Shown: one piece after another, positions 8,182-32,739 of the stretch | How the letters are laid out: every line of letters begins with the position of its first letter | How positions within the stretch are numbered: the first letter of the stretch is position 1 | Assembly (NCBI GenBank): GCA_005893265.1 | Contig: VBOX01000064.1 | Coordinates: forward strand, 1-33,339 | Origin: Candidatus Eiseniibacteriota bacterium | GTDB lineage: Bacteria > Eisenbacteria > RBG-16-71-46 > SZUA-252 | Length of the DNA stretch: 33,339 nt | Reading direction: 5' to 3' | Notes under the pieces: generated by a model | Told to the model about the DNA's origin: nothing | Databases searched by the model: none | What the model saw: only the letters and a program-made list of their open reading frames with translations | Translations under genes and position numbers: made by a program

Positions 8182-8261
8182 ATGGCCGAGGTTCGGACGT
8201 CGGAGATCCTCACGGAGCGGCGTGGCCGCGTCGCGCTGATCACGCTGAACCGCCCCGAGTG
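8182..8261 (+). pseudogene. Orphaned N-terminus of the PaaG-like crotonase (out of frame)
   Basis: The ATG at 8182, 5 nt after the ALDH stop, opens MAEVRTSEILTERRGRVALITLNRPE, a textbook crotonase first beta-hairpin. After the PE the frame runs into WRCAPRCEKRS, which is not crotonase sequence. The expected continuation (EMRTPLREAFEG) is present in the next frame, only 2 nt later. Crotonases usually have about 7 residues (xxNALxx) between these points, so about 19 nt seem to be missing. This fragment belongs with the body at 8259-8966. Confidence 0.8.
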
Positions 8262-8966
8262 GAGATGCGCACCCCGCTGCGAGAAGCGTTCGAAGGGGCC
8301 GCAAGCGACTCCGGCGTCCGGGCGATCGTGGTTACGGGCGCGGGGCGCGGATTTTCCGCCGGCGGCGACATCAAGTTCATGGAATCGGTGATGGCCCGAG
8401 GGGGCCGATTCGAGGATTTCCGCCCCCTCGTCGAAGCCGGCCGGGAGATCGTGCTGGCGTTGGCGAGGATCGATAAGCCGGTGATCGCTGCGGTAAACGG
8501 CGCGGCGGCCGGAGGAGGCATGAGCTTAGCACTCGCATGCGACGTGCGCTGGGCCTCAGAAATCGCAAAGTTCGCCCAGAGTTTCGCCCGGATCGCGCTT
8601 CATCCCGATTGGGGCGCGCTCCACTCGCTCCCGCGTCTTCTCGGCACGTCGCGCGCGCTGGAGCTGATGTGGACAGGCGATCTCGTGGATGCGCAGGAAG
8701 CGCTTCGCTTGGGGATCGTCTCCCGCGTGCTCCCCGCGGAGCGACTCCTGCCCGAGGCGATTGCCTTCGCGGGCCGGCTCGCGCAGGGACCGGCCGTCGC
8801 GCTGGCCGAAATCAAGCGCTCGGTTCGGGCCTCGCTCGGCTATACTCTCGAGCAAGCGCTCGAACGGGAAATCGAAGCCCAGGAACGATGCTGGAATTCG
8901 CACGACGCCCGCGAGGGCTTCGCCGCCTTTCTCGCGAAACGCGAGCCGCGATACGAGGGCCCTTGA
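8259..8966 (+). CDS. Enoyl-CoA hydratase/isomerase, PaaG-like, body of a frame-disrupted gene
   Basis: The open body (235 aa from a GTG) covers the crotonase fold after its first hairpin: AGRGFSAGGDIKFME (first oxyanion loop), AAVNGAAAGGGMSLALACD (second oxyanion loop) and LPRLLGTSRALELMWTGDLVDAQEALRLGIV. Both hydratase glutamates are absent: S follows GGGM, and QSFARIALHPD replaces QPEI. QSF with a following PD is the PaaG/isomerase-type pattern, where an aspartate acts instead. The N-terminal strand is in another frame (8182-8261). As written, the product would lack that strand and probably misfold. It sits fourth-from-last in the catabolic operon. Confidence 0.8.
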   Translation: MEMRTPLREAFEGAASDSGVRAIVVTGAGRGFSAGGDIKFMESVMARGGRFEDFRPLVEAGREIVLALARIDKPVIAAVNGAAAGGGMSLALACDVRWASEIAKFAQSFARIALHPDWGALHSLPRLLGTSRALELMWTGDLVDAQEALRLGIVSRVLPAERLLPEAIAFAGRLAQGPAVALAEIKRSVRASLGYTLEQALEREIEAQERCWNSHDAREGFAAFLAKREPRYEGP

Positions 8967-10751: not shown

Positions 10752-13700
10752 ATGCAGGCATCCCCATCTGTCAGCCCGGTCCCACGTCGGAGGAAGCTTG
10801 CGCCCGCGCGTTCGGTCCTACCGAGCCTTGGTTCCCCTGCTCGGCACGCTACTGGCCCCGCAAGCGCTCGCCGTGCCGTTCGTGATCCAGACCGTCGACT
10901 CACGTGGACAGTCGAAGTAGCCGACTCCCTGGGCAACGTGGGCTACTACACGTCGCTCGCATTCGATGGAGCCGACGTCCCCCATATCAGCTACTTCGAT
11001 ATCGATCGGGCGGATCTGCGCTATGCCACGAAAGTGTCCGGCGTGTGGGTCGCCCAGGTGGTCGACTCGGTAGGAAGCGTGGGGCAGTTCAGCTCGATTG
11101 CCGTCGATGCCGATGGAAACCCGAGAATCACCTACTACGACAAAGACCACGGGGATTTGAAATATGCGGCGATGGCGGGCGGCGTGTGGACCATCGAGAC
11201 CGCGGACTCGGTCGGCGACGTGGGATTTTACACATCCCTCGCGCTCGACGCTCTCGGGGAGCCTAGCGTGAGCTACTCCGATATCAGCGGCGGCGGGCTC
11301 AAATACGCCCACAAGTCGGGAGGGGTTTGGTCCGCTGAAGTCGTGGAACCAGGCTTTCCGGTCGGGACGTATTCCTCGCTCGCGCTCGAACCGTCCGGTC
11401 GGGCCCATATCAGCTACGCAAACATCGGCCTCCAGACCCTCAGGTATGCCGTACAGGACGGCGCGGGATGGAGCCTCGAGACGGTGGACGGCAGCGGATC
11501 GGTCGGCTACTACACGTCGATTCAGCTCGCAGGAGGAACCAGCCCACGAATCAGCTACATCGACATCGCGCACCGAAAGCTCCTCTACGCCGCGCGCGGT
11601 TCTGGTTTCAACTGGGACATCGAGACCGTGGACCAGGTCACGCAGGCCCTCTTCTACACCTCTCTCAAGCTCGACAGCGAGGGCAACCCGAAGATCAGCT
11701 ACTTCGACAACGAGAAGGGCGATCTCAAATTCGCCGATTCCGCGGTTCACCTGATCGCGCCCGCGGGGGGCGAGCGTTGGCCTGCCGGGAGCGCGCAGAA
11801 GGTCGCCTGGACCGGGATCGGGCCGGTCGAGGTCCTGATCTCCCAGGACGGCGGCGCGAATTACATCGCTGCCCTGCCCTCGCCGGTAACAGACCACGAG
11901 GTCTTCATCCCGGTCCCATCCTGGACGACGACCATGGGTCGGGTGAAGGTTCGCCGCAGCTCCCCCCTTTCCTCGTCTGAATGCAGGGGACTCCTCACCA
12001 TAGCCCTCGGCCTCACCTCTCCCTGGTGGGCGAAGACCATCGACGCGGTGGGCTCCACGGGATACAACCCCTCGCTCCGCCTGACGCCGGCGGGAGCACC
12101 CCGAATCTCCTACTGGGACCTGTCGGCCCGAGCGGTCCGATTCGCGGCGCGCACCGGCGGTGTCTGGAATTTCGAAACCGTGCAGATCACCGGCGGATCG
12201 ACGACGCCCACGTCGCTCGCGATCAGCGCCATCGGGATTCCCTCGATCGCGTACTTCGACAATGCAGCCCGGCAGCTCAAGTACGCGGTCCGGGTAGGCG
12301 GGACGTGGTCGAGCGAGATCGTGCGATCGCTCACCGTCGTGGGGGATCATTGCTCCCTGGCGCTCAACTCGTTCGGGAGCCCGAGAATCGCCTACTACGA
12401 AAGCTCCCCAGCGAGACTTGTTCTCGCCGCGCAAGCCGGCGTTTCATGGGGCACGGAGGACGTGGATGCCGGAACGGACGTGGGCCTCTACAACTCCCTG
12501 GCGCTCGATAACATCGGATACCCGTACATCAGCTACTACGACGGAACCAATCATGATCTGAAATTCGCTTCCAAGGCAGGCGCGACCTGGACGGTCGAGA
12601 CGGTCGATGCGGCCGGAGACGTTGGATCCTATTCCTCGCTCGTGCTGGACGCGGGCCGAAATCCTCACGTGAGCTACGTGGACGTCGGGAACGGATATTT
12701 GAAATACGCCACCAAAGCGGGAGGTACTTGGACGATCGAGACCGTGGACTTCGGGGGGTACGTGGACGGTTCCACGTCCATCGCCCTTGACGGCGGCGGC
12801 CAGCCGCACATCGCGTATTACGACGCGGTCACGAGCCGGCTCCGGTACGCATCACGCTCGGCGCTGGGGTGGAGCACCGATAGCGTCGACCCGAGCGCGG
12901 GCGGGGGAGGACGGAACTCGCTCGCTCTGGACTCGGATGGAAATCCGCGGATCGCCTTCCAGCATATCGCCTCGAGCGATCTGCGCTACGCCTCCGCCGC
13001 GATCGAGCTCTCCGCTCCGGCGACCGCCGTGGTATGGCCGGTGGGGGCGAATCGGATCGTGCGCTGGGAAGGAACCGGATACGCGAATCTTTGGATTTCA
13101 ACCGACGGTGGAACCTCGTTTCAAATGATCGCGCCCGGGCTCAGCGGGGGCGCGTATACGCTGCTCGTGCCGCGGTCGCCATCGACGCAGTGCCGCGTAC
13201 GCCTTCAGCGTGACTTCCCATATTCCGCCTCGCTCTGCGAATCCCTATTCGAGATCAAGGCGAGCGTGGATCTCGTGGCCTTCCGCGCGGATCCCGTGCC
13301 GTACGAGGGGGGCGCGCTCGTAACTTGGGCGACCAATCCGGGCGTTGGCGATCTCGCCGGGTACCGCCTTGAGAAGGCGGTTGGCTCCGGAGCCTTCACC
13401 TCGGTCCTCGGGCTCACGAGCGAGGTGACCTACCGCGATCCCGGCGCGATCCCAGGCACGCAATACAGGCTGACCGCGGTGAACGGTCTGGGGGACGCGT
13501 TCGTTCTGGGCGTGGCCACTTTCCGGCCCCGGAAGCCGCTCGCGGCGGGACCGTTGCCCTACCGCGGCGGTGACCTCACGATTTCCTTCGCGTCGTCGGG
13601 CGGGGCCGCCGGCGCGCCCGCCCTGACCGAAGTGATTTTGTTCGACTTGCGCGGGCGGAGGGTCCGCACGATCGCGCGCGGTCCGTACCCGTCCGGCTTC

Positions 13701-13820
13701 CAGAGCGCCGCGTGGAACGGGAAGGACGAAGGAGGACGCCGGGTCGCCTCGGGCGTGTACTTCTTGAAGACCGTGAGCGGCGGCCACGAACAGTCGATCA
13801 AGATCACCGTGCTTCGATGA
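10752..13820 (+). CDS. Large secreted repeat protein (two propeller-like arrays, FlgD/T9SS-like C-terminus), N-terminus frame-disrupted
   Basis: The frame gives 1022 aa, but the first 50 residues (PSVSPVPRRRKLAPARS...) look non-coding and no ribosome site precedes the ATG. From WTVEVADSLGNVGYYTS onward there are 13 tandem repeats of about 47 residues (consensus W..E.VDS.G.VG.Y.SLALD..G.PHISYYD...LKYA.K.GG). Six lie before and seven after a spacer domain beginning APAGGERWPAGSAQKVAWTG. A second such domain (VVWPVGANRIVRWEGTG) follows, then a fibronectin-III-like stretch (PYEGGALVTWATNPG). The end is LFDLRGRRVRTIARG...WNGKDEGGRRVASGVYFLK, the FlgD-Ig/T9SS-type sorting module common in FCB and Eisenbacteria proteins. 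The protein is probably cell-surface; its ligand is unknown. A signal peptide exists in another frame (see 10798-10920). Confidence 0.85.
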   Translation: MQASPSVSPVPRRRKLAPARSVLPSLGSPARHATGPASARRAVRDPDRRLTWTVEVADSLGNVGYYTSLAFDGADVPHISYFDIDRADLRYATKVSGVWVAQVVDSVGSVGQFSSIAVDADGNPRITYYDKDHGDLKYAAMAGGVWTIETADSVGDVGFYTSLALDALGEPSVSYSDISGGGLKYAHKSGGVWSAEVVEPGFPVGTYSSLALEPSGRAHISYANIGLQTLRYAVQDGAGWSLETVDGSGSVGYYTSIQLAGGTSPRISYIDIAHRKLLYAARGSGFNWDIETVDQVTQALFYTSLKLDSEGNPKISYFDNEKGDLKFADSAVHLIAPAGGERWPAGSAQKVAWTGIGPVEVLISQDGGANYIAALPSPVTDHEVFIPVPSWTTTMGRVKVRRSSPLSSSECRGLLTIALGLTSPWWAKTIDAVGSTGYNPSLRLTPAGAPRISYWDLSARAVRFAARTGGVWNFETVQITGGSTTPTSLAISAIGIPSIAYFDNAARQLKYAVRVGGTWSSEIVRSLTVVGDHCSLALNSFGSPRIAYYESSPARLVLAAQAGVSWGTEDVDAGTDVGLYNSLALDNIGYPYISYYDGTNHDLKFASKAGATWTVETVDAAGDVGSYSSLVLDAGRNPHVSYVDVGNGYLKYATKAGGTWTIETVDFGGYVDGSTSIALDGGGQPHIAYYDAVTSRLRYASRSALGWSTDSVDPSAGGGGRNSLALDSDGNPRIAFQHIASSDLRYASAAIELSAPATAVVWPVGANRIVRWEGTGYANLWISTDGGTSFQMIAPGLSGGAYTLLVPRSPSTQCRVRLQRDFPYSASLCESLFEIKASVDLVAFRADPVPYEGGALVTWATNPGVGDLAGYRLEKAVGSGAFTSVLGLTSEVTYRDPGAIPGTQYRLTAVNGLGDAFVLGVATFRPRKPLAAGPLPYRGGDLTISFASSGGAAGAPALTEVILFDLRGRRVRTIARGPYPSGFQSAAWNGKDEGGRRVASGVYFLKTVSGGHEQSIKITVLR
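10798..10920 (+). pseudogene. Out-of-frame signal peptide belonging to the repeat protein
   Basis: A TTG at 10798 with GGAGGA just upstream opens LRPRVRSYRALVPLLGTLLA, then PQALA followed by VPFVIQTVDS: a classical signal peptide with an ALA cleavage site and the first 8-10 residues of a repeat. This frame stops at TAG 10918, while the repeat body reads in the neighbouring frame from WTVEV at 10905. The two parts clearly belong together. About 36-37 codons of one repeat, in a number of bases not divisible by three, seem to be missing between about 10899 and 10905. Confidence 0.72.
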
Positions 13821-24576: not shown

Positions 24577-25404
24577 ATGAATTTCGGGAAGGTTGCCTTC
24601 GGCACACTTCTCCTCGTTGCCGGCGTGCTCCTTCTCGCGATCCGGCTGGGCCTGGTTCCCCCCGACACACCCGGCTTTCTCCTTCGATTCTGGCCCGTCC
24701 TCCTCATCGCATTCGGCCTCGCGTTCCTGGCGGGTGCGCTCAAAAACCCATTCCTGGGCTGTCTGGCCTCGATCTTGATCGTGGGGGGCGTCGCGGTCGG
24801 TGTCTTTTGGATGATCCAGCGCCACGAAGGAGCCAAGGTCTCCCGGGGCGTGGCTTCGATCGATCTGGGAAGGGCAAAGGTGGGGTCGCTCACCGTGCGC
24901 GTCCGGACGTTCGCGGGGGGGTTCGACCTCATCGGGGCGCCGGCCAAATCGCGCACGCTCTACGTCGCTGTCCGGAACAGCGCCGGAGATTCCGCCAGCG
25001 GGTACCGATTCTTCGCTTCAGGAAAAACAGGCGCGCTCGAGTGGCCGCAGCGGCTGGACGGACTTGGCTTGGCGCCGCCCGGCGGGGGGGTGGACGTCCA
25101 GGTTCCGCTCCACCTCGAGCTTGGAGACTCGGGACGGCCCGATCAGATCCACATCGGGGGGGCCCTCTCGACAGCCCACATTCGGATCGCGCAGGATGTG
25201 CCCGTACAACTCCTCGTCCGTTCCCCGCTCACCGCGCGAACCCTTCCGTCGGATTTCGTGAAGGAGACACAGGGGCGCGGCAAAGGACTCGTGTACGCCG
25301 CTCGAGGGCGCGGGCGCGTGGTGAAGATTTTCGCGGACGGGAATCTTCTTCACGTCAAAATCGAGCGTATTCCCGGGAAGGAGATCTTGAATGGGCGCCG
25401 GTAG
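24577..25404 (+). CDS. LiaF-like membrane protein (DUF5668-type TM region)
   Basis: The protein is 275 aa. Three TM segments occupy the first 80 residues (KVAFGTLLLVAGVLLLAIRLG, FWPVLLIAFGLAFLAGAL, CLASILIVGGVAVGVFWMI). FWPVLLIAFGL is the signature of the LiaI/LiaF-like TM region. The C-terminal 190 residues are a beta-rich soluble domain (GSLTVRVRTFAGGFDLIG, VDVQVPLHLELGD, VPVQLLVRSPL), like the putative beta-helix of LiaF/DUF4097 proteins. LiaF relatives tune envelope-stress two-component systems in Firmicutes; no such kinase is nearby, so the role here is open. It overlaps the next small gene by 14 nt. Confidence 0.75.
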   Translation: MNFGKVAFGTLLLVAGVLLLAIRLGLVPPDTPGFLLRFWPVLLIAFGLAFLAGALKNPFLGCLASILIVGGVAVGVFWMIQRHEGAKVSRGVASIDLGRAKVGSLTVRVRTFAGGFDLIGAPAKSRTLYVAVRNSAGDSASGYRFFASGKTGALEWPQRLDGLGLAPPGGGVDVQVPLHLELGDSGRPDQIHIGGALSTAHIRIAQDVPVQLLVRSPLTARTLPSDFVKETQGRGKGLVYAARGRGRVVKIFADGNLLHVKIERIPGKEILNGRR

Positions 25405-25950: not shown

Positions 25951-26101
25951 CCCCTCCATAATTTCGCGCACAGCGCCTGCGCGTCCGTAGCGCGCCTCCA
26001 CTCGCGCCTCCTCGCCGACCGCACCGTCACAGGCAGGTGGCGTATGTGGGGCAGCGCCCGTGCCGTCTGTCCCGCGTTGCCACGCACCGCCGGAGGCCTA
26101 C

Positions 26102-27454
26102 ATGCTTCAACGACTGATGCTTGCATACATGTTGCTCGCGACTTCCACCGCTCCCGCGCTCGCGGGGGCGGTGAATCCGGATATTTCCGCGGTGGGCCAG
26201 CAGGGTGCACTTGACTCGCTCACTTTTGCCGTCCGAGCCCTACAGGCGCGAGTGGACAGCTTGGCCAGCGCTGGCGAGGAGTCCGCGGCTGCGTCGCGGG
26301 CCGCTCAACAATCGCCCTCGACGGCGCCCGTGGCGCGGGCGGGGGGGACGTACATGAACGTCAGCTATGACGGGCTCGCTGACTTCGGCTGGTCCTCCGA
26401 GCCGAACGTCGGTTCGCTTCAGGGGGGTGATCACGATCCTCATGTACGCGGCTTCACAATTCCCAATGCCGAGCTCGCGCTTGATGGAACAGTGGATCCG
26501 TACTTCAAGGGATTCAGCAACATCGTCCTCAAGTTGAATTCAGACGGCGAGACGGGTATCGAATTGGAGGAGACGTATTTGCTGACGACCTCATTGCCTT
26601 GGAACCTGCAGCTCAAGGGCGGGCAATTCTTCGCCGAGTTCGGCCGCCAGAACGCCCAGCACCCGCACGCGTGGTCTTTTGTGGACCAGCCGTTGGTGCT
26701 CAATCGCATGTTCGGCCCCGATGGACTGCGTAGCCAAGGTGCCAGGATCTCCTGGCTCGCGCCGACGTCGTGGTATTCGGAGGCCACGCTCAGCGTTCTC
26801 AACAGCGCTGGCGGGACGACGTTCAGTTTTCGCTCGCCTGAGTCCTCGGAGCTTCATGGAGGTGTACCCGTCGGGCGCGGCGTGCGCGCACTTGAGGACT
26901 TCCTGGTCGTGCCGCGCATCGCCACGTCGGTCGACCTGACCGCTACCCAGACGCTCGTGTTGGGCACGTCGGCGGCCTTCGGACCGAATAACTCCGGCCC
27001 TCGCGCCAGGACCCAGGTGTACGGCGCCGACCTTTACTGGAAATGGAAGTCCGCCACCGCGGATCGGGGCTTCCCCTTCTTCTCCTCGCAGACCGAGGCG
27101 CTGTTCCGAAGCTATGGAGCGGCAGAGCGCGTGTCGGCCGAAGACGCGTCGGTCACATTGTCCAGTGAGACGCTCCGCGACCGGGGCGTGTACTCGCAGT
27201 TGTTGTGGGGTATCAAACCGCTCTGGGTAGCCGGGCTGCGCGGCGACTACGTGAGCGGCGACGCGGGAGCGTTCGATTCACCCCTACGCGGCGAGCGCTA
27301 TCGGCTCTCGCCGAATCTCACGTGGTTTCCGAGCGAATTCTCGAAGTTGCGACTGCAGTACAACTACGATCATCGCAAGGGACTCGGCGCCGATCACTCG
27401 GTGTGGCTTCAATCCGAGTTCCTCCTGGGCGCACACGCAGCACACAAATTCTAG
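26102..27454 (+). CDS. Outer-membrane protein linked to metal ABC transport
   Basis: The protein is 450 aa from MLQRLMLAYMLLATSTAPALAG, a signal peptide; GGAGG lies 5 nt before the ATG. A short coiled-coil-like stretch (LDSLTFAVRALQARVDSLAS) follows, then a low-complexity linker and a barrel-like body (VRGFTIPNAELALDGTVDPY, LQLKGGQFFAEFGRQN, LRLQYNYDHRKG) ending in phenylalanine (HAAHKF). His-rich spots include NAQHPHAWS. It is 15 nt upstream of the metal-binding lipocalin-free periplasmic protein gene, so it probably lets the metal or a carrier cross the outer membrane. That role is inferred from the operon only; no TonB box or plug domain is visible. Confidence 0.75.
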   Translation: MLQRLMLAYMLLATSTAPALAGAVNPDISAVGQQGALDSLTFAVRALQARVDSLASAGEESAAASRAAQQSPSTAPVARAGGTYMNVSYDGLADFGWSSEPNVGSLQGGDHDPHVRGFTIPNAELALDGTVDPYFKGFSNIVLKLNSDGETGIELEETYLLTTSLPWNLQLKGGQFFAEFGRQNAQHPHAWSFVDQPLVLNRMFGPDGLRSQGARISWLAPTSWYSEATLSVLNSAGGTTFSFRSPESSELHGGVPVGRGVRALEDFLVVPRIATSVDLTATQTLVLGTSAAFGPNNSGPRARTQVYGADLYWKWKSATADRGFPFFSSQTEALFRSYGAAERVSAEDASVTLSSETLRDRGVYSQLLWGIKPLWVAGLRGDYVSGDAGAFDSPLRGERYRLSPNLTWFPSEFSKLRLQYNYDHRKGLGADHSVWLQSEFLLGAHAAHKF

Positions 27455-27469
27455 AGGACGAGAAATCTC

Positions 27470-28396
27470 ATGAAGACCATGACTCTGTTACCAATCGCGG
27501 CCGCCGCGCTGATCGCGATGACCGGTGCCGGAACCGCATCCGCACGGCCGCTCAACGTGGTAGCCACTACGCCCGACCTCGCAGCGCTTGCCAGAGAAAT
27601 CGGCGGTGATGCCGTGGCCGTGGTAGCGCTGGCCAAACCGACGGAAGACCCGCATTTCGTTGACGCCAAACCGAGCCACATCGTCACACTCCACCGCGCC
27701 GACGTGCTCATCGAAGGTGGCGCCGAGCTGGAAATCGGCTGGCTGCCCCCCTTGCTTGAGAGCGCGCGCAACGACAAAATCGCCCCGGGCGCGCCGGGGC
27801 GCATCGTCGCATCGCAGGGCATCAGGCTGCTCGAAGTACCCTCCACGCTGGACCGTTCCAGGGGGGATGTGCACGCGCTGGGCAATCCCCATTTTCTGAT
27901 CGATCCACTGAATGTGAGGATCATCGCAGGGGAAATCGCCGCCCATCTCGCGGAGGTCAATCCGGCATCCGCCCAACTGTTCCAGGCCAATCTGAGGACA
28001 TTTGACGCCCGGCTCGACGCGAAGACGGCCGATTGGCAAAAGCAGCTCGAACCGTATCGCGGGGCGAAGATCGTGACCTACCACAACGATTTCGTCTATC
28101 TGGCCGAGCGATTCAATCTGGAGGTCGTCGCGACCCTGGAGCCGAAGCCAGGCATCTCCCCCTCGCCCGCACATCTGGCCGAAGTCATTGAAAAGATGAA
28201 GGCGGAAAAGGCGCGCGTGATTCTCGTACAGCCCTACCAAAACCGTAAGACGGCGGAAGCGGTGGCGCGTCAGACGGGTGCGGTGGTGTTGGATAGCGCC
28301 CAACAGCCGGGAGCTTACAAGGATACCGCCACATATTTTCAGTTGATGGATACCCTGGTGCGAGGGCTGGCTACGGCCTTTAAGGAGAAGACGTGA
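27470..28396 (+). CDS. Zinc/manganese ABC transporter substrate-binding protein (ZnuA/TroA family)
   Basis: A 308-aa periplasmic cluster A-I metal-binding protein. The signal peptide is MKTMTLLPIAAAALIAMTGA, then GTASA. The three family histidines are visible: H62 (TEDPHFVDAKPSH), H141 (GNPHFLIDP) and H205 (TYHNDF). The fourth ligand is probably D275 in VVLDSAQQ. The His/Asp-rich loop of true zinc-specific ZnuA is missing, so zinc versus manganese is open. GAGGACGAG precedes the ATG. Its stop overlaps the permease start (TGATG), leaving no room for an ATPase gene. Confidence 0.92.
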   Translation: MKTMTLLPIAAAALIAMTGAGTASARPLNVVATTPDLAALAREIGGDAVAVVALAKPTEDPHFVDAKPSHIVTLHRADVLIEGGAELEIGWLPPLLESARNDKIAPGAPGRIVASQGIRLLEVPSTLDRSRGDVHALGNPHFLIDPLNVRIIAGEIAAHLAEVNPASAQLFQANLRTFDARLDAKTADWQKQLEPYRGAKIVTYHNDFVYLAERFNLEVVATLEPKPGISPSPAHLAEVIEKMKAEKARVILVQPYQNRKTAEAVARQTGAVVLDSAQQPGAYKDTATYFQLMDTLVRGLATAFKEKT

Positions 28397-29229
28397 TGCA
28401 AGGGGATTTCCAGATCGCTTGGGAGGTCATGAAATGGCCATTGGCAGCTTGCCTTGTGCTGCCACCGCTGCTGGTCTATCTCGGACTTCACGTCGTGGAG
28501 CGTGAGGTGATCTTCGTGGACCTGGCGCTGGCCCAAGTGGCGACGCTGGGTACCTGCGTGGCTCTGATCATGGGCCACGATCTCAAGGAACCGATCGCGT
28601 TTTGGATTTCGCTCGGCGTGACGTTTCTGGCCGCGGCACTCTTCAGTTGGTCGCGCAGCAGCGCCAAACGTCATGTCCCGCAAGAAGCCATCATCGGCAT
28701 CACGTTCGTGGTAGCTGCCGCGGGCGTGATCTTGCTGCTCAGCAGAGTGGCCGGAGGGAAAGAGGAGCTCGAGAATTTGTTGACGGGGGATGTTCTCAAC
28801 GTGACCAAGGCCGAAGTCGGCCAGCGCGCGGCGATCTTTGCAGTGTTGGCCGGCTTCTACGGCGCTTTTCACAAGCGCTTCGCGCTGATTTCGTCCGATC
28901 CGGAGGGGGCTCGTGCACAAGGACTGAAGGTGCGGCTGTGGGACTTTCTGTTTTACGCGGCCTTTGCATTGGTCGTCGTCAGCTTTGTGCGTCTGGCAGG
29001 GGTGTTGCTGACGTTTGCCTATCTGATCGTGCCCGCCGTCTGCGCGGTGATGCTCGCTTCACGATGGAGGGCGCGGTTGGTGATCGGGTGGGTGATAGCC
29101 GCGGCAGCGAGCCTGCTCGGGCTGTGGGCGTCGTATCGACTGGACTTGCCTACCGGGGCTGCGATTGTGTGCGCTTGCGGCTTGCTCTTGATCGCGGTGA
29201 GCGGTTACGCCGTTGTGCGCCGAGCGTAG
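28396..29229 (+). CDS. Metal ABC transporter permease (ZnuB/TroC, ABC-3 family)
   Basis: A 277-aa inner-membrane protein with about 8 TM segments. VDLALAQVATLGTCVALIMG near residue 40 is the ABC-3 permease signature. Later segments DPEGARAQGLKVRLWDFLFYAAFALVVV and AGVLLTFAYLIVPAVCAVML contain the ATPase-contact loop and the conserved LIVPA. The start is the ATG at 28396 within TGATG; the track's GTG one codon earlier is less likely. No ATP-binding subunit is present in the operon or anywhere in the window, so it must borrow one or be incomplete. Confidence 0.9.
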   Translation: MQGDFQIAWEVMKWPLAACLVLPPLLVYLGLHVVEREVIFVDLALAQVATLGTCVALIMGHDLKEPIAFWISLGVTFLAAALFSWSRSSAKRHVPQEAIIGITFVVAAAGVILLLSRVAGGKEELENLLTGDVLNVTKAEVGQRAAIFAVLAGFYGAFHKRFALISSDPEGARAQGLKVRLWDFLFYAAFALVVVSFVRLAGVLLTFAYLIVPAVCAVMLASRWRARLVIGWVIAAAASLLGLWASYRLDLPTGAAIVCACGLLLIAVSGYAVVRRA

Positions 29230-29664: not shown

Positions 29665-30027
29665 ATGTCCCGACCAACCGGAATCTGGATCACGGCCCTG
29701 GTGGTGGTCTCATTGGCGATCGGGATCATCTGGACCATCCGGCTCGCTCCCCCCTCCCCCGCGCCGTGGTGGTGGGGGAAGAACCCCGACCTCCACGTCG
29801 AAGTCTGGGAGCCCGGGAAGGACATGGCCACGGTCGCGATGACGATGCCAAAGAAGACGATCGACACGATGTTCGCCCTGGGCCTACCCGCAGAGGTCAG
29901 CGCCAACGGCCACAAGATCCGCTTGAACGCAGTTCGATCCCAGATCGAGCACCTTCCGCGCCGGGAAAAGCTCAAGATCCAGGACGGAGCGGCGACCGTC
30001 TACCTATGGCTTGATGTGAAGGAGTAG
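29665..30027 (+). CDS. Hypothetical membrane-anchored small protein
   Basis: The protein is 120 aa. One N-terminal TM (WITALVVVSLAIGIIWTIRL) is followed by a small soluble domain ([53 protein letters not shown]). GAGGAGAT lies 7 nt before the ATG, a good ribosome site. I recognise no family. Its 3' end overlaps the out-of-frame tail of the topoisomerase VI A reading frame by 28 nt, but not the inferred original end of that gene (30053). Confidence 0.6.
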   Translation: MSRPTGIWITALVVVSLAIGIIWTIRLAPPSPAPWWWGKNPDLHVEVWEPGKDMATVAMTMPKKTIDTMFALGLPAEVSANGHKIRLNAVRSQIEHLPRREKLKIQDGAATVYLWLDVKE

Positions 30028-31073
30028 GCCCGCACCAAGCCGAAATCCTTTCTCAGGGCAGGAATTTCTCCGGGTGTGCGATCTTCTGGGGTAGGTACTC
30101 GTCGATAACGTAATTCAAGCCGTGCGCGGCCAGGGCCTAGGAAGAATGGGTCGTTCTTGAGCGCGTCCTTGGCCCGCTTCACGTCGACTTCCTTGAGGGG
30201 ATGGGTCGGTAGCTTGTAGTCGATGATGTCTTGGGGAGTGATTCCCAGGAAGCGAGCCTGCGGCACGCAGAAGAACTCGTTGATGTGCGCCGCGTTCCCC
30301 GAGCCAACCTTGAACGTGCGGTAGATGTTGCTGATCCCGTAGGGATCGCCGTCCACGAACACGTAGACCGGGATCTTCTTCACGTCGGCGAGACGCCGGA
30401 TGAACCGTCGGCAGGCGCGCGTCGGCACGCCCCCCATCGAAACCAGGATGCAGTTCGCCTTCTTCCAGTAGCCGTGCTTCACGAGCCGCTGGAACATTCC
30501 CGCGGTCTCGATCACCAGAATGAACTTGGCCTTGGTCTCAAACCCAAGATCTTCGACCGAGATGGGGATCGAGTAGGCGCCGGAGCCGAACTTGGTGCAG
30601 TCGATCCTGATCGCTTTACCCGTGTTGGGATCCTTGTCGATGACGATCAAGTTGCCCGCGACGTCTCCCCCCTTTTCCTCCGGAACGAACCCGAGCTGCT
30701 CGCGGTTCACCTCGAAGAGCGCCTCGACGTCGTCCATCACGGTGTCGGATTCCGTTTGCTCCAGGAAGCGCGCCTCGTCCCAATTCTTCGAGACGTAATA
30801 GGCCTCTCGCTTCGTCGCGATATCGTCGGTTTCGACGAGGGTCTTCGAGAGGGCCATCATGCGCAGCGTCTGCGCGAACGTCTTCACGGTGTTCACGGTC
30901 AAAGTCCGCTCCTTCTTGCGTCCGCGGATCTCGAAATACCCTTCCTTCTCGAGATAGCGCACGTTCGCGAGGGAGCGTATCGGGAATCGAAGGGAGGGCT
31001 TCTTCCTCTTCAAGATGGACTCCTCGACTCCCTTCGCCTCCTTCTTGATCTTAGGTACGACGCTCTCACTCAT
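30000..31073 (-). CDS. top6A: Type II DNA topoisomerase VI subunit A (Spo11-like), C-terminus frame-disrupted
   Basis: The DNA-cleaving subunit of topoisomerase VI. The winged-helix/CAP domain carries the catalytic tyrosine Y93 in KREAYYVSK. The Toprim domain has E189 ([10 protein letters not shown]) and D241/D243 (VFVDGDPYG), with [18 protein letters not shown] before it. The frame is family-like up to NDPFF at about residue 311; the last 46 residues ([16 protein letters not shown]...) are not. The true C-terminus ([20 protein letters not shown]) is readable in another frame and ends at 30053. So about 25-30 codons, with a frame change, are missing near 30140. The ATG overlaps the subunit B stop by 8 nt (co-translated). 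All catalytic residues remain. Confidence 0.9.
30053..30139 (-). pseudogene. Orphaned C-terminal end of topoisomerase VI subunit A
   Basis: In the frame next to the annotated top6A frame, this stretch encodes [20 protein letters not shown], then HPEKFLP and a stop: the typical end of a topoisomerase VI A subunit (family pattern: QALAKHGL.YVI.EYLP.KI). It is immediately preceded by TAG in its own frame at the breakpoint (TTCCTAGGCC). Confidence 0.75.
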
Positions 31074-32739
31074 TTTTCCGGCTCCGTTCCAAAGTGTCCT
31101 TCAGGGTCGCGCAAACCTTCTCTTTCCGCTTGTCGTCGATGCCGAGAATCTCTTGAAGCGCGATCCCGATGTGGGGAATGTATTTCTCGATGTACGAGGC
31201 TTTCTTCTCAGCGTCGGCCTCGCGCAAACCGCGGCGGATGTAGAGCCCCAGCTTCCGGCCCACGTCCTGGAGCGCGAGCTTGATCTCCTTGACGATCTCC
31301 GGGTACGAGGCGACCGCCTCCTTGCTTTCCGAGGTAAACGGCACCCAGACCGAGGCGATATGCACCATCAGGACCATGGGAGCCGTCGGCAAGGCCCCCC
31401 GCGCCTGCTGGATCCCGTAGTTCTTCCACGTGTTCGAGACCACCGATTTCGTGATGGCGCAGGCAGACTGCTGATACAGGAGCGGAACGCGGTTGGCGAA
31501 TCGAAGCATCGTGACCAGCTCGTCCGCCGGGAGCTGGCCGCCTCCGTAGGCGAGCGCGGCCTCGATGAGGAAGGGGTTCCCACGGTAGACCGCGGGGCTT
31601 CGCGAGGTCGCCGCGTAGAAGTCCGCCGTGACCTGCTTCTTCAGCCCCTCGATCAAGAGCTCGTCCCCGATCGGCGAAAGCACGTTCGACTGCGGGGCCA
31701 TGAGCTTCGCCGCCTGGATCGCGTTGTAGAGCGCCTCCGCCTGCTCGCGCGCCGCCTTGGGAGGCGACATCGAGAGGGGCAGGCCCGCCGACTTCACGAT
31801 CTCCTCGGCCACCGGGCCGCTCACGCGCGAGAACTCGGCATGGAGAAACGAGGTGATGTTTCTCGCCTTCGTCTCGTGGAGCATCTTGAGGAGAATCCCC
31901 AGCTCGATGCCGTGCGGATGCGGCTTGATCTCGAGCGGCGCCTTGGGAAGCTCCCCCGCGACGCGGGCATACTCGTGACGCTCGCCGTCGGGAGCCACGT
32001 ACGAGACCTTGGCGTGCGGGTTCGCGATCGCGGTCTGCTCGACATAGCCGTCCACGGAGTGGCGGCCCTTCTTGTAGGTCGCTTCGATCTCGAGCTCGAC
32101 CTTCGTCCCGTGTTCGACCGTGCTCTTCTCCCCGGTCGTCGGGTCGACGACATGCCAGTCCCCGAGCTCCCGGTCGGAGACGGGGACGGGCTGGTTTCGC
32201 TTTGTGTCGATCTGGATCTCGAACTCGTGTGCCGGCTTGGTCGGCCCGGTCTTGGAGATGATCCGGATCGGCTTGCCGGTCGTGAGCTGGCCGTACATGC
32301 CCGCAGCGGAGATTCCGATCCCCTGCTGCCCGCGCGCCTGCCGCAGCGTGTGGAACTTCGAGCCGTAGAGGAGCTGCCCGAATATCTTGGGAATTTGGGC
32401 CTTCACGATGCCCGGCCCATTGTCTTGGACCGCGACGCGGTAGCGCGTCTCGGAAATCTCCCCGATCTCGATCAGGAGGTCCGGCAGTATGCCCGCCTCT
32501 TCGCACGCATCGAGCGCGTTATCGACCGCTTCTTTGACGGTGGTGAGGAGGGCCTTTGCGGGGCTGTCGAACCCGAGGAGATGGCGGTTCTTCGTGAAGA
32601 ACTCACTGACCGATATCTCACGCTGGCGAGCCGCGAGATCGTGGGCGGTCAGCCGAACGACGGGCTTGGGGGCGGCCTTCTTGCCGGCCCGGCCGAGCTT
32701 CTCTTTCCGAGCGATTCGTTTGAGCTGTGGTTGTGCCAT
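31066..32739 (-). CDS. top6B: Type II DNA topoisomerase VI subunit B
   Basis: The ATPase subunit of topoisomerase VI. The protein is 557 aa, close to the archaeal length. The GHKL fold motifs are [17 protein letters not shown] (E70 general base, N74), AVQDNGPGI (106-111) and [15 protein letters not shown] (137-151), with LLYGSKFH before the lid. A helix-two-turn-helix and transducer domain fill the rest ([39 protein letters not shown] near 385). AAGGGAGG lies 3 nt before the ATG. The stop overlaps the A subunit start. Topoisomerase VI is mainly archaeal and plant and is only patchily found in bacteria. Confidence 0.95.

Follow-up and report, generated by a model that had tools for sequence, protein, structure and literature searches.

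Topoisomerase VI occurs in archaea and in a subset of bacteria (PMC8837201). Topoisomerase VI A systems have the A subunit gene in an operon with Top6B, and structures exist for the A subunit family from M. jannaschii (Top6A/Spo11 family, 1d3y) and M. mazei (Top6A, 2q2e). Pseudogenes produced by assembly have been documented as common; in these spurious cases, genes at sites across a draft genome have a broken reading frame, and their counterparts in close relatives do not (Cooley and Wright 2024, PMC11017572). We analyzed a 33,339-nt stretch of DNA (the window), which makes up the whole of contig C45 in a draft genome of 2.48 Mb (116 contigs, 93% complete). Within the same genome family, the best named relative was a Candidatus Eisenbacteria MAG (L002), the match of which appears identical to that of G005.

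The topoisomerase VI operon lies on the minus strand close to the right end of the window, and the A subunit gene is found in an operon with Top6B, as in the known systems. The adjacent B subunit matched profiles for the GHKL ATPase and the transducer, and its 3' end shares an overlap of 8 nt with the start of the A subunit. The A subunit as read is a 357-aa ORF (31073..30000), the conserved part of which spans the N-terminal region, an all-beta insert and most of the Toprim domain. All three domains were found (TP6A_N, Topo_VI_alpha and TOP6A-Spo11_Toprim; PF04406, PF20768 and PF21180, all above the curated cut-off). Residues 59-311 gave an end-to-end alignment with 1d3y (E 8e-94), and residues 22-311 aligned with 2q2e; both matches ended at residue 311. 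The Toprim profile match stopped at the same residue, at position 128 of 170, i.e., at the break point. The sole departure from known topoisomerase VI A is that the final ~49 residues are lost or shifted through a 65-bp gap. Elsewhere in the window, at 26060-29229, an ORF resembling a porin precedes ORFs that look like the binding protein and the permease of a zinc/manganese ABC uptake pair, as judged from translations only; this region had no DNA match at the corresponding place in G003.

The first-pass annotation had described the A subunit as family-like up to NDPFF (about residue 311) and nonsense-like thereafter, with the expected terminus just downstream in another frame, and had attributed this to an internal deletion with a frame change. 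Each of these observations held. After residues 311-312, the ORF reads into a different sequence ending in SSHR, and the complete Toprim-side C-terminal end (EQQALAxHGLNYVI...FLP) is absent as read; its remainder, 27 codons (ALAAHG...FLP) at 30136..30056, sits in the other frame and keeps its own stop at 30055..30053. In pairwise alignments with the A subunits of two congeners, G003 and G002 (98.7% and 96.2% identity, respectively, over residues 1-312), a single clean block was missing from the window and present in both congeners; because 65 mod 3 = 2, the net loss of 65 nt changes the frame. The annotation had also placed 25-30 residues between NDPFF and the terminus. In G003, 23 residues separate NDPFF from ALAAHG. 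Tyr92/Tyr93, Glu189, Asp241 and Asp243, which we take from knowledge of the family to be the catalytic tyrosine and the Toprim acidic residues (Glu, DxD), were invariant in the alignment, were retained here and all preceded the break, as had been claimed.

We then looked for the new tail among ~90 readable homologue loci from several phyla, a finding that would have spoken for a native end, and none carried it. All ~90 homologues with a readable end, including both congeners, had the normal end, and that of L006 departed from the others solely in its last few residues. In G001, a further draft from this genus, the contig ends inside the topoisomerase VI operon, within the B subunit.

The A subunit gene was compared with that of G003 on both sides of the junction. 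Before the junction, dN was 0.006 and dS was 0.355. Past the junction, the original frame showed 9 synonymous and 1 non-synonymous differences, and the frame now read showed 1 synonymous and 9 non-synonymous. As judged from these substitutions, selection acts in the original frame of the A subunit up to and beyond the junction, indicating that the tail evolved within an intact gene up to the present; therefore, the loss is either extremely recent or not real. The predicted structure of the 357-aa ORF was poor overall (mean pLDDT 54.7), and within this poor model the last ~37 residues of the new tail had a pLDDT of 25-34, which might hint that the tail is unfolded.

Next to the local alignment, we compared 615 kb of this genome, a sampled quarter, with 1.39 Mb of G003, the nearest sister genome compared and the sole main sister in the count; 252 kb could be aligned. 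Clean deletions of 57-145 bp numbered 16 in this genome vs 1 in G003 over these 252 kb (two-sided binomial p = 0.0003), a density here of ~1 per 16 kb. They ignored both reading frame and conserved sites, and roughly half changed the frame. In the eight best-aligned deletions, microhomology at the junctions was 0-1 bp, so that repeat-mediated deletion is not indicated. The coordinates of the features are collected below.

Features of the topoisomerase VI operon in the window and clean deletions in the window and elsewhere in the same genome
Feature	Position	Strand	Evidence
Intact B subunit of topoisomerase VI (557 aa)	31066..32739	-	NCBIfam NF003218 and TIGR01052 over cut-off; Pfam PF09239
Topoisomerase VI A subunit, conserved part, residues 1-311	30139..31073	-	Pfam matches; identity to G003; dN/dS figures
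Junction of 65-bp deletion, no bases between, 0-1 bp microhomology	30138..30139	-	Alignments to G003 and G002
Severed true C-terminus of A subunit, original frame	30053..30137	-	9 synonymous/1 non-synonymous vs G003
Spurious frame-shifted tail of 357-aa ORF	30000..30138	-	Carried by no homologue; low pLDDT
Clean ~108-bp in-frame deletion vs G003	10901..10902	+	In repeat-protein ORF 10752-13820
Clean ~108-bp in-frame deletion vs G003	25106..25107	+	In ORF 24577-25404
Clean losses of 74-145 bp elsewhere in this genome (G000)	C6:6248; C9:13857, 18503; C19:19300; C24:9236; C3:7541, 9153, 11301		

The losses outside the window, read from loci L139, L142, L152, L157 and L136, fell in a uvrA paralogue, lepA, glmS, an ABC exporter gene, groEL, rlmN and two further ORFs, one of a sigma-54-type regulator and one outer-membrane-like. 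The sole full-length copy of glmS in the genome was split by a frame-shifting deletion, lepA was split by a frame-shifting loss of 74 nt, and the ABC exporter gene and a lipoprotein gene were each split in the same manner. The uvrA paralogue was likewise split by a frame-shifting loss of 145 nt, with the main uvrA copy on C79 intact, and the in-frame deletion in rlmN removed 25 residues from the conserved RlmN core. One of two groEL copies was split by a frame-shifting loss of 104 nt; since the other copy is intact, we dropped groEL as an essential-gene hit, and the essential-gene argument rests on glmS. In the sequence comparison, the deletions are thus systematic, one-sided and frame-blind, and the same class of defect recurs across the sampled assembly in genes expected from general knowledge to be indispensable, the pattern by which an assembly artefact was to be recognized. 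In the opposite direction, an enoyl-CoA-hydratase-like gene (8259-8966) is whole in the window, and G003 has 73 bp where the window has 606 (8193-8798); this copy is therefore truncated in the sister.

Loss of glmS or gyrA function is not expected in a living cell. Similar breaks occur in G001: the only gyrA match lacked 152 nt and changed frame (G001:C84:28112-29277, L131) next to an intact gyrB, and both uvrA genes were split with codons missing. The breaks in glmS and gyrA are therefore most simply read as missing draft sequence. Gyrase A and B were both found intact in the genome of the window. Separately, G006, a genome of the same family (40 contigs, 95% complete), carried intact topoisomerase VI A and B, and a search of it for gyrase A and gyrase B returned no match. 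This absence probably reflects one missing locus; if true, a bacterium with topoisomerase VI and without gyrase would be remarkable.

Taken together, the break in topoisomerase VI A is very probably a defect of the draft genome, the organism itself not being defective. The first-pass annotation had left two options, decay of the enzyme or an error in the sequence; the evidence strongly favors the latter, owing to the many identical-looking small deletions in the sampled quarter, including that in the sole full-length glmS, and makes decay unlikely. We suggest that ~65 bp of the A subunit gene was dropped from the contig, as ~50-150 bp would have been at many other sites, and that, as the likely route, the assembly left a short gap, which was then closed or had its Ns removed, the two flanks being butted together. 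The missing blocks here (57-145 bp) differ from the single-base indel or internal stop reported by Cooley and Wright (2024, PMC11017572), and a literature search for assembly-lost blocks of ~100 bp found nothing specific to this exact pattern. Several observations count against a dropped block. Searching the rest of the genome for the missing 65 bp gave no hit, and the deleted segments, inspected for extreme GC or hairpin richness as coverage dropout might require, were ordinary in GC and folding. One run of 14 Ns survives in the sampled part of the assembly (G000:C8:9931-9944, L141), indicating that Ns were not stripped everywhere. Moreover, the cell might tolerate losing topoisomerase VI because gyrase A and B are present.

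This last point also bears on the foremost alternative, a genuine 65-bp deletion that would have arisen very recently in the population sequenced and left the A subunit a fresh pseudogene in a cell relying on gyrase. The clean deletion with intact flanks agrees with it, as does the absence of a topoisomerase VI A match from some related genomes of the class. However, it would have to be one of ~16 deletions in 252 kb, all equally fresh, that strike glmS and lepA as well and leave no microhomology. The B subunit shows no decay, and the tail is still coding-like in the old frame; we consider this alternative unlikely. It is less probable still that the lineage is truly shedding ~100-bp blocks genome-wide without regard to frame, in a burst of erosion whose latest effects would be the inactivation of topoisomerase VI here and of gyrase in a sister draft. 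A mixture of strains, in which the deletion is present in some of the sampled cells and the assembler picked that variant, fits a window from a fragmented draft of 116 contigs; it leaves unexplained why the same size class of deletion appears in essential genes across the sampled contigs, and we regard it as very improbable. That the A subunit still works in truncated form, with a new tail of 45 residues, has a negligible chance of being correct, even though the B subunit and every active-site residue are intact, given that none of the readable homologues, congeners included, has the tail, that its DNA evolved in the old frame and that it has no confident fold in a model poor overall.

We therefore return to missing draft sequence as the reading of this locus. 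The living cell would make a normal A subunit of ~361 aa. Together with the intact B subunit encoded next to it, this would form an ordinary A2B2 type IIB topoisomerase beside gyrase, presumably acting in ATP-driven double-strand passage and decatenation. The odd cell that had been envisaged, with a broken A subunit and an intact B subunit, is unsupported, as the same deletions are scattered through the sampled assembly. Counting clean deletions in both directions against a sister genome offers a cheap general test for such errors, and it flags this assembly as one in which "broken genes" should not be taken as biology. The broken topoisomerase VI A subunit is almost certainly not a real feature, and recognizing this keeps the topoisomerase VI of this bacterium from being wrongly reported as half-dead.
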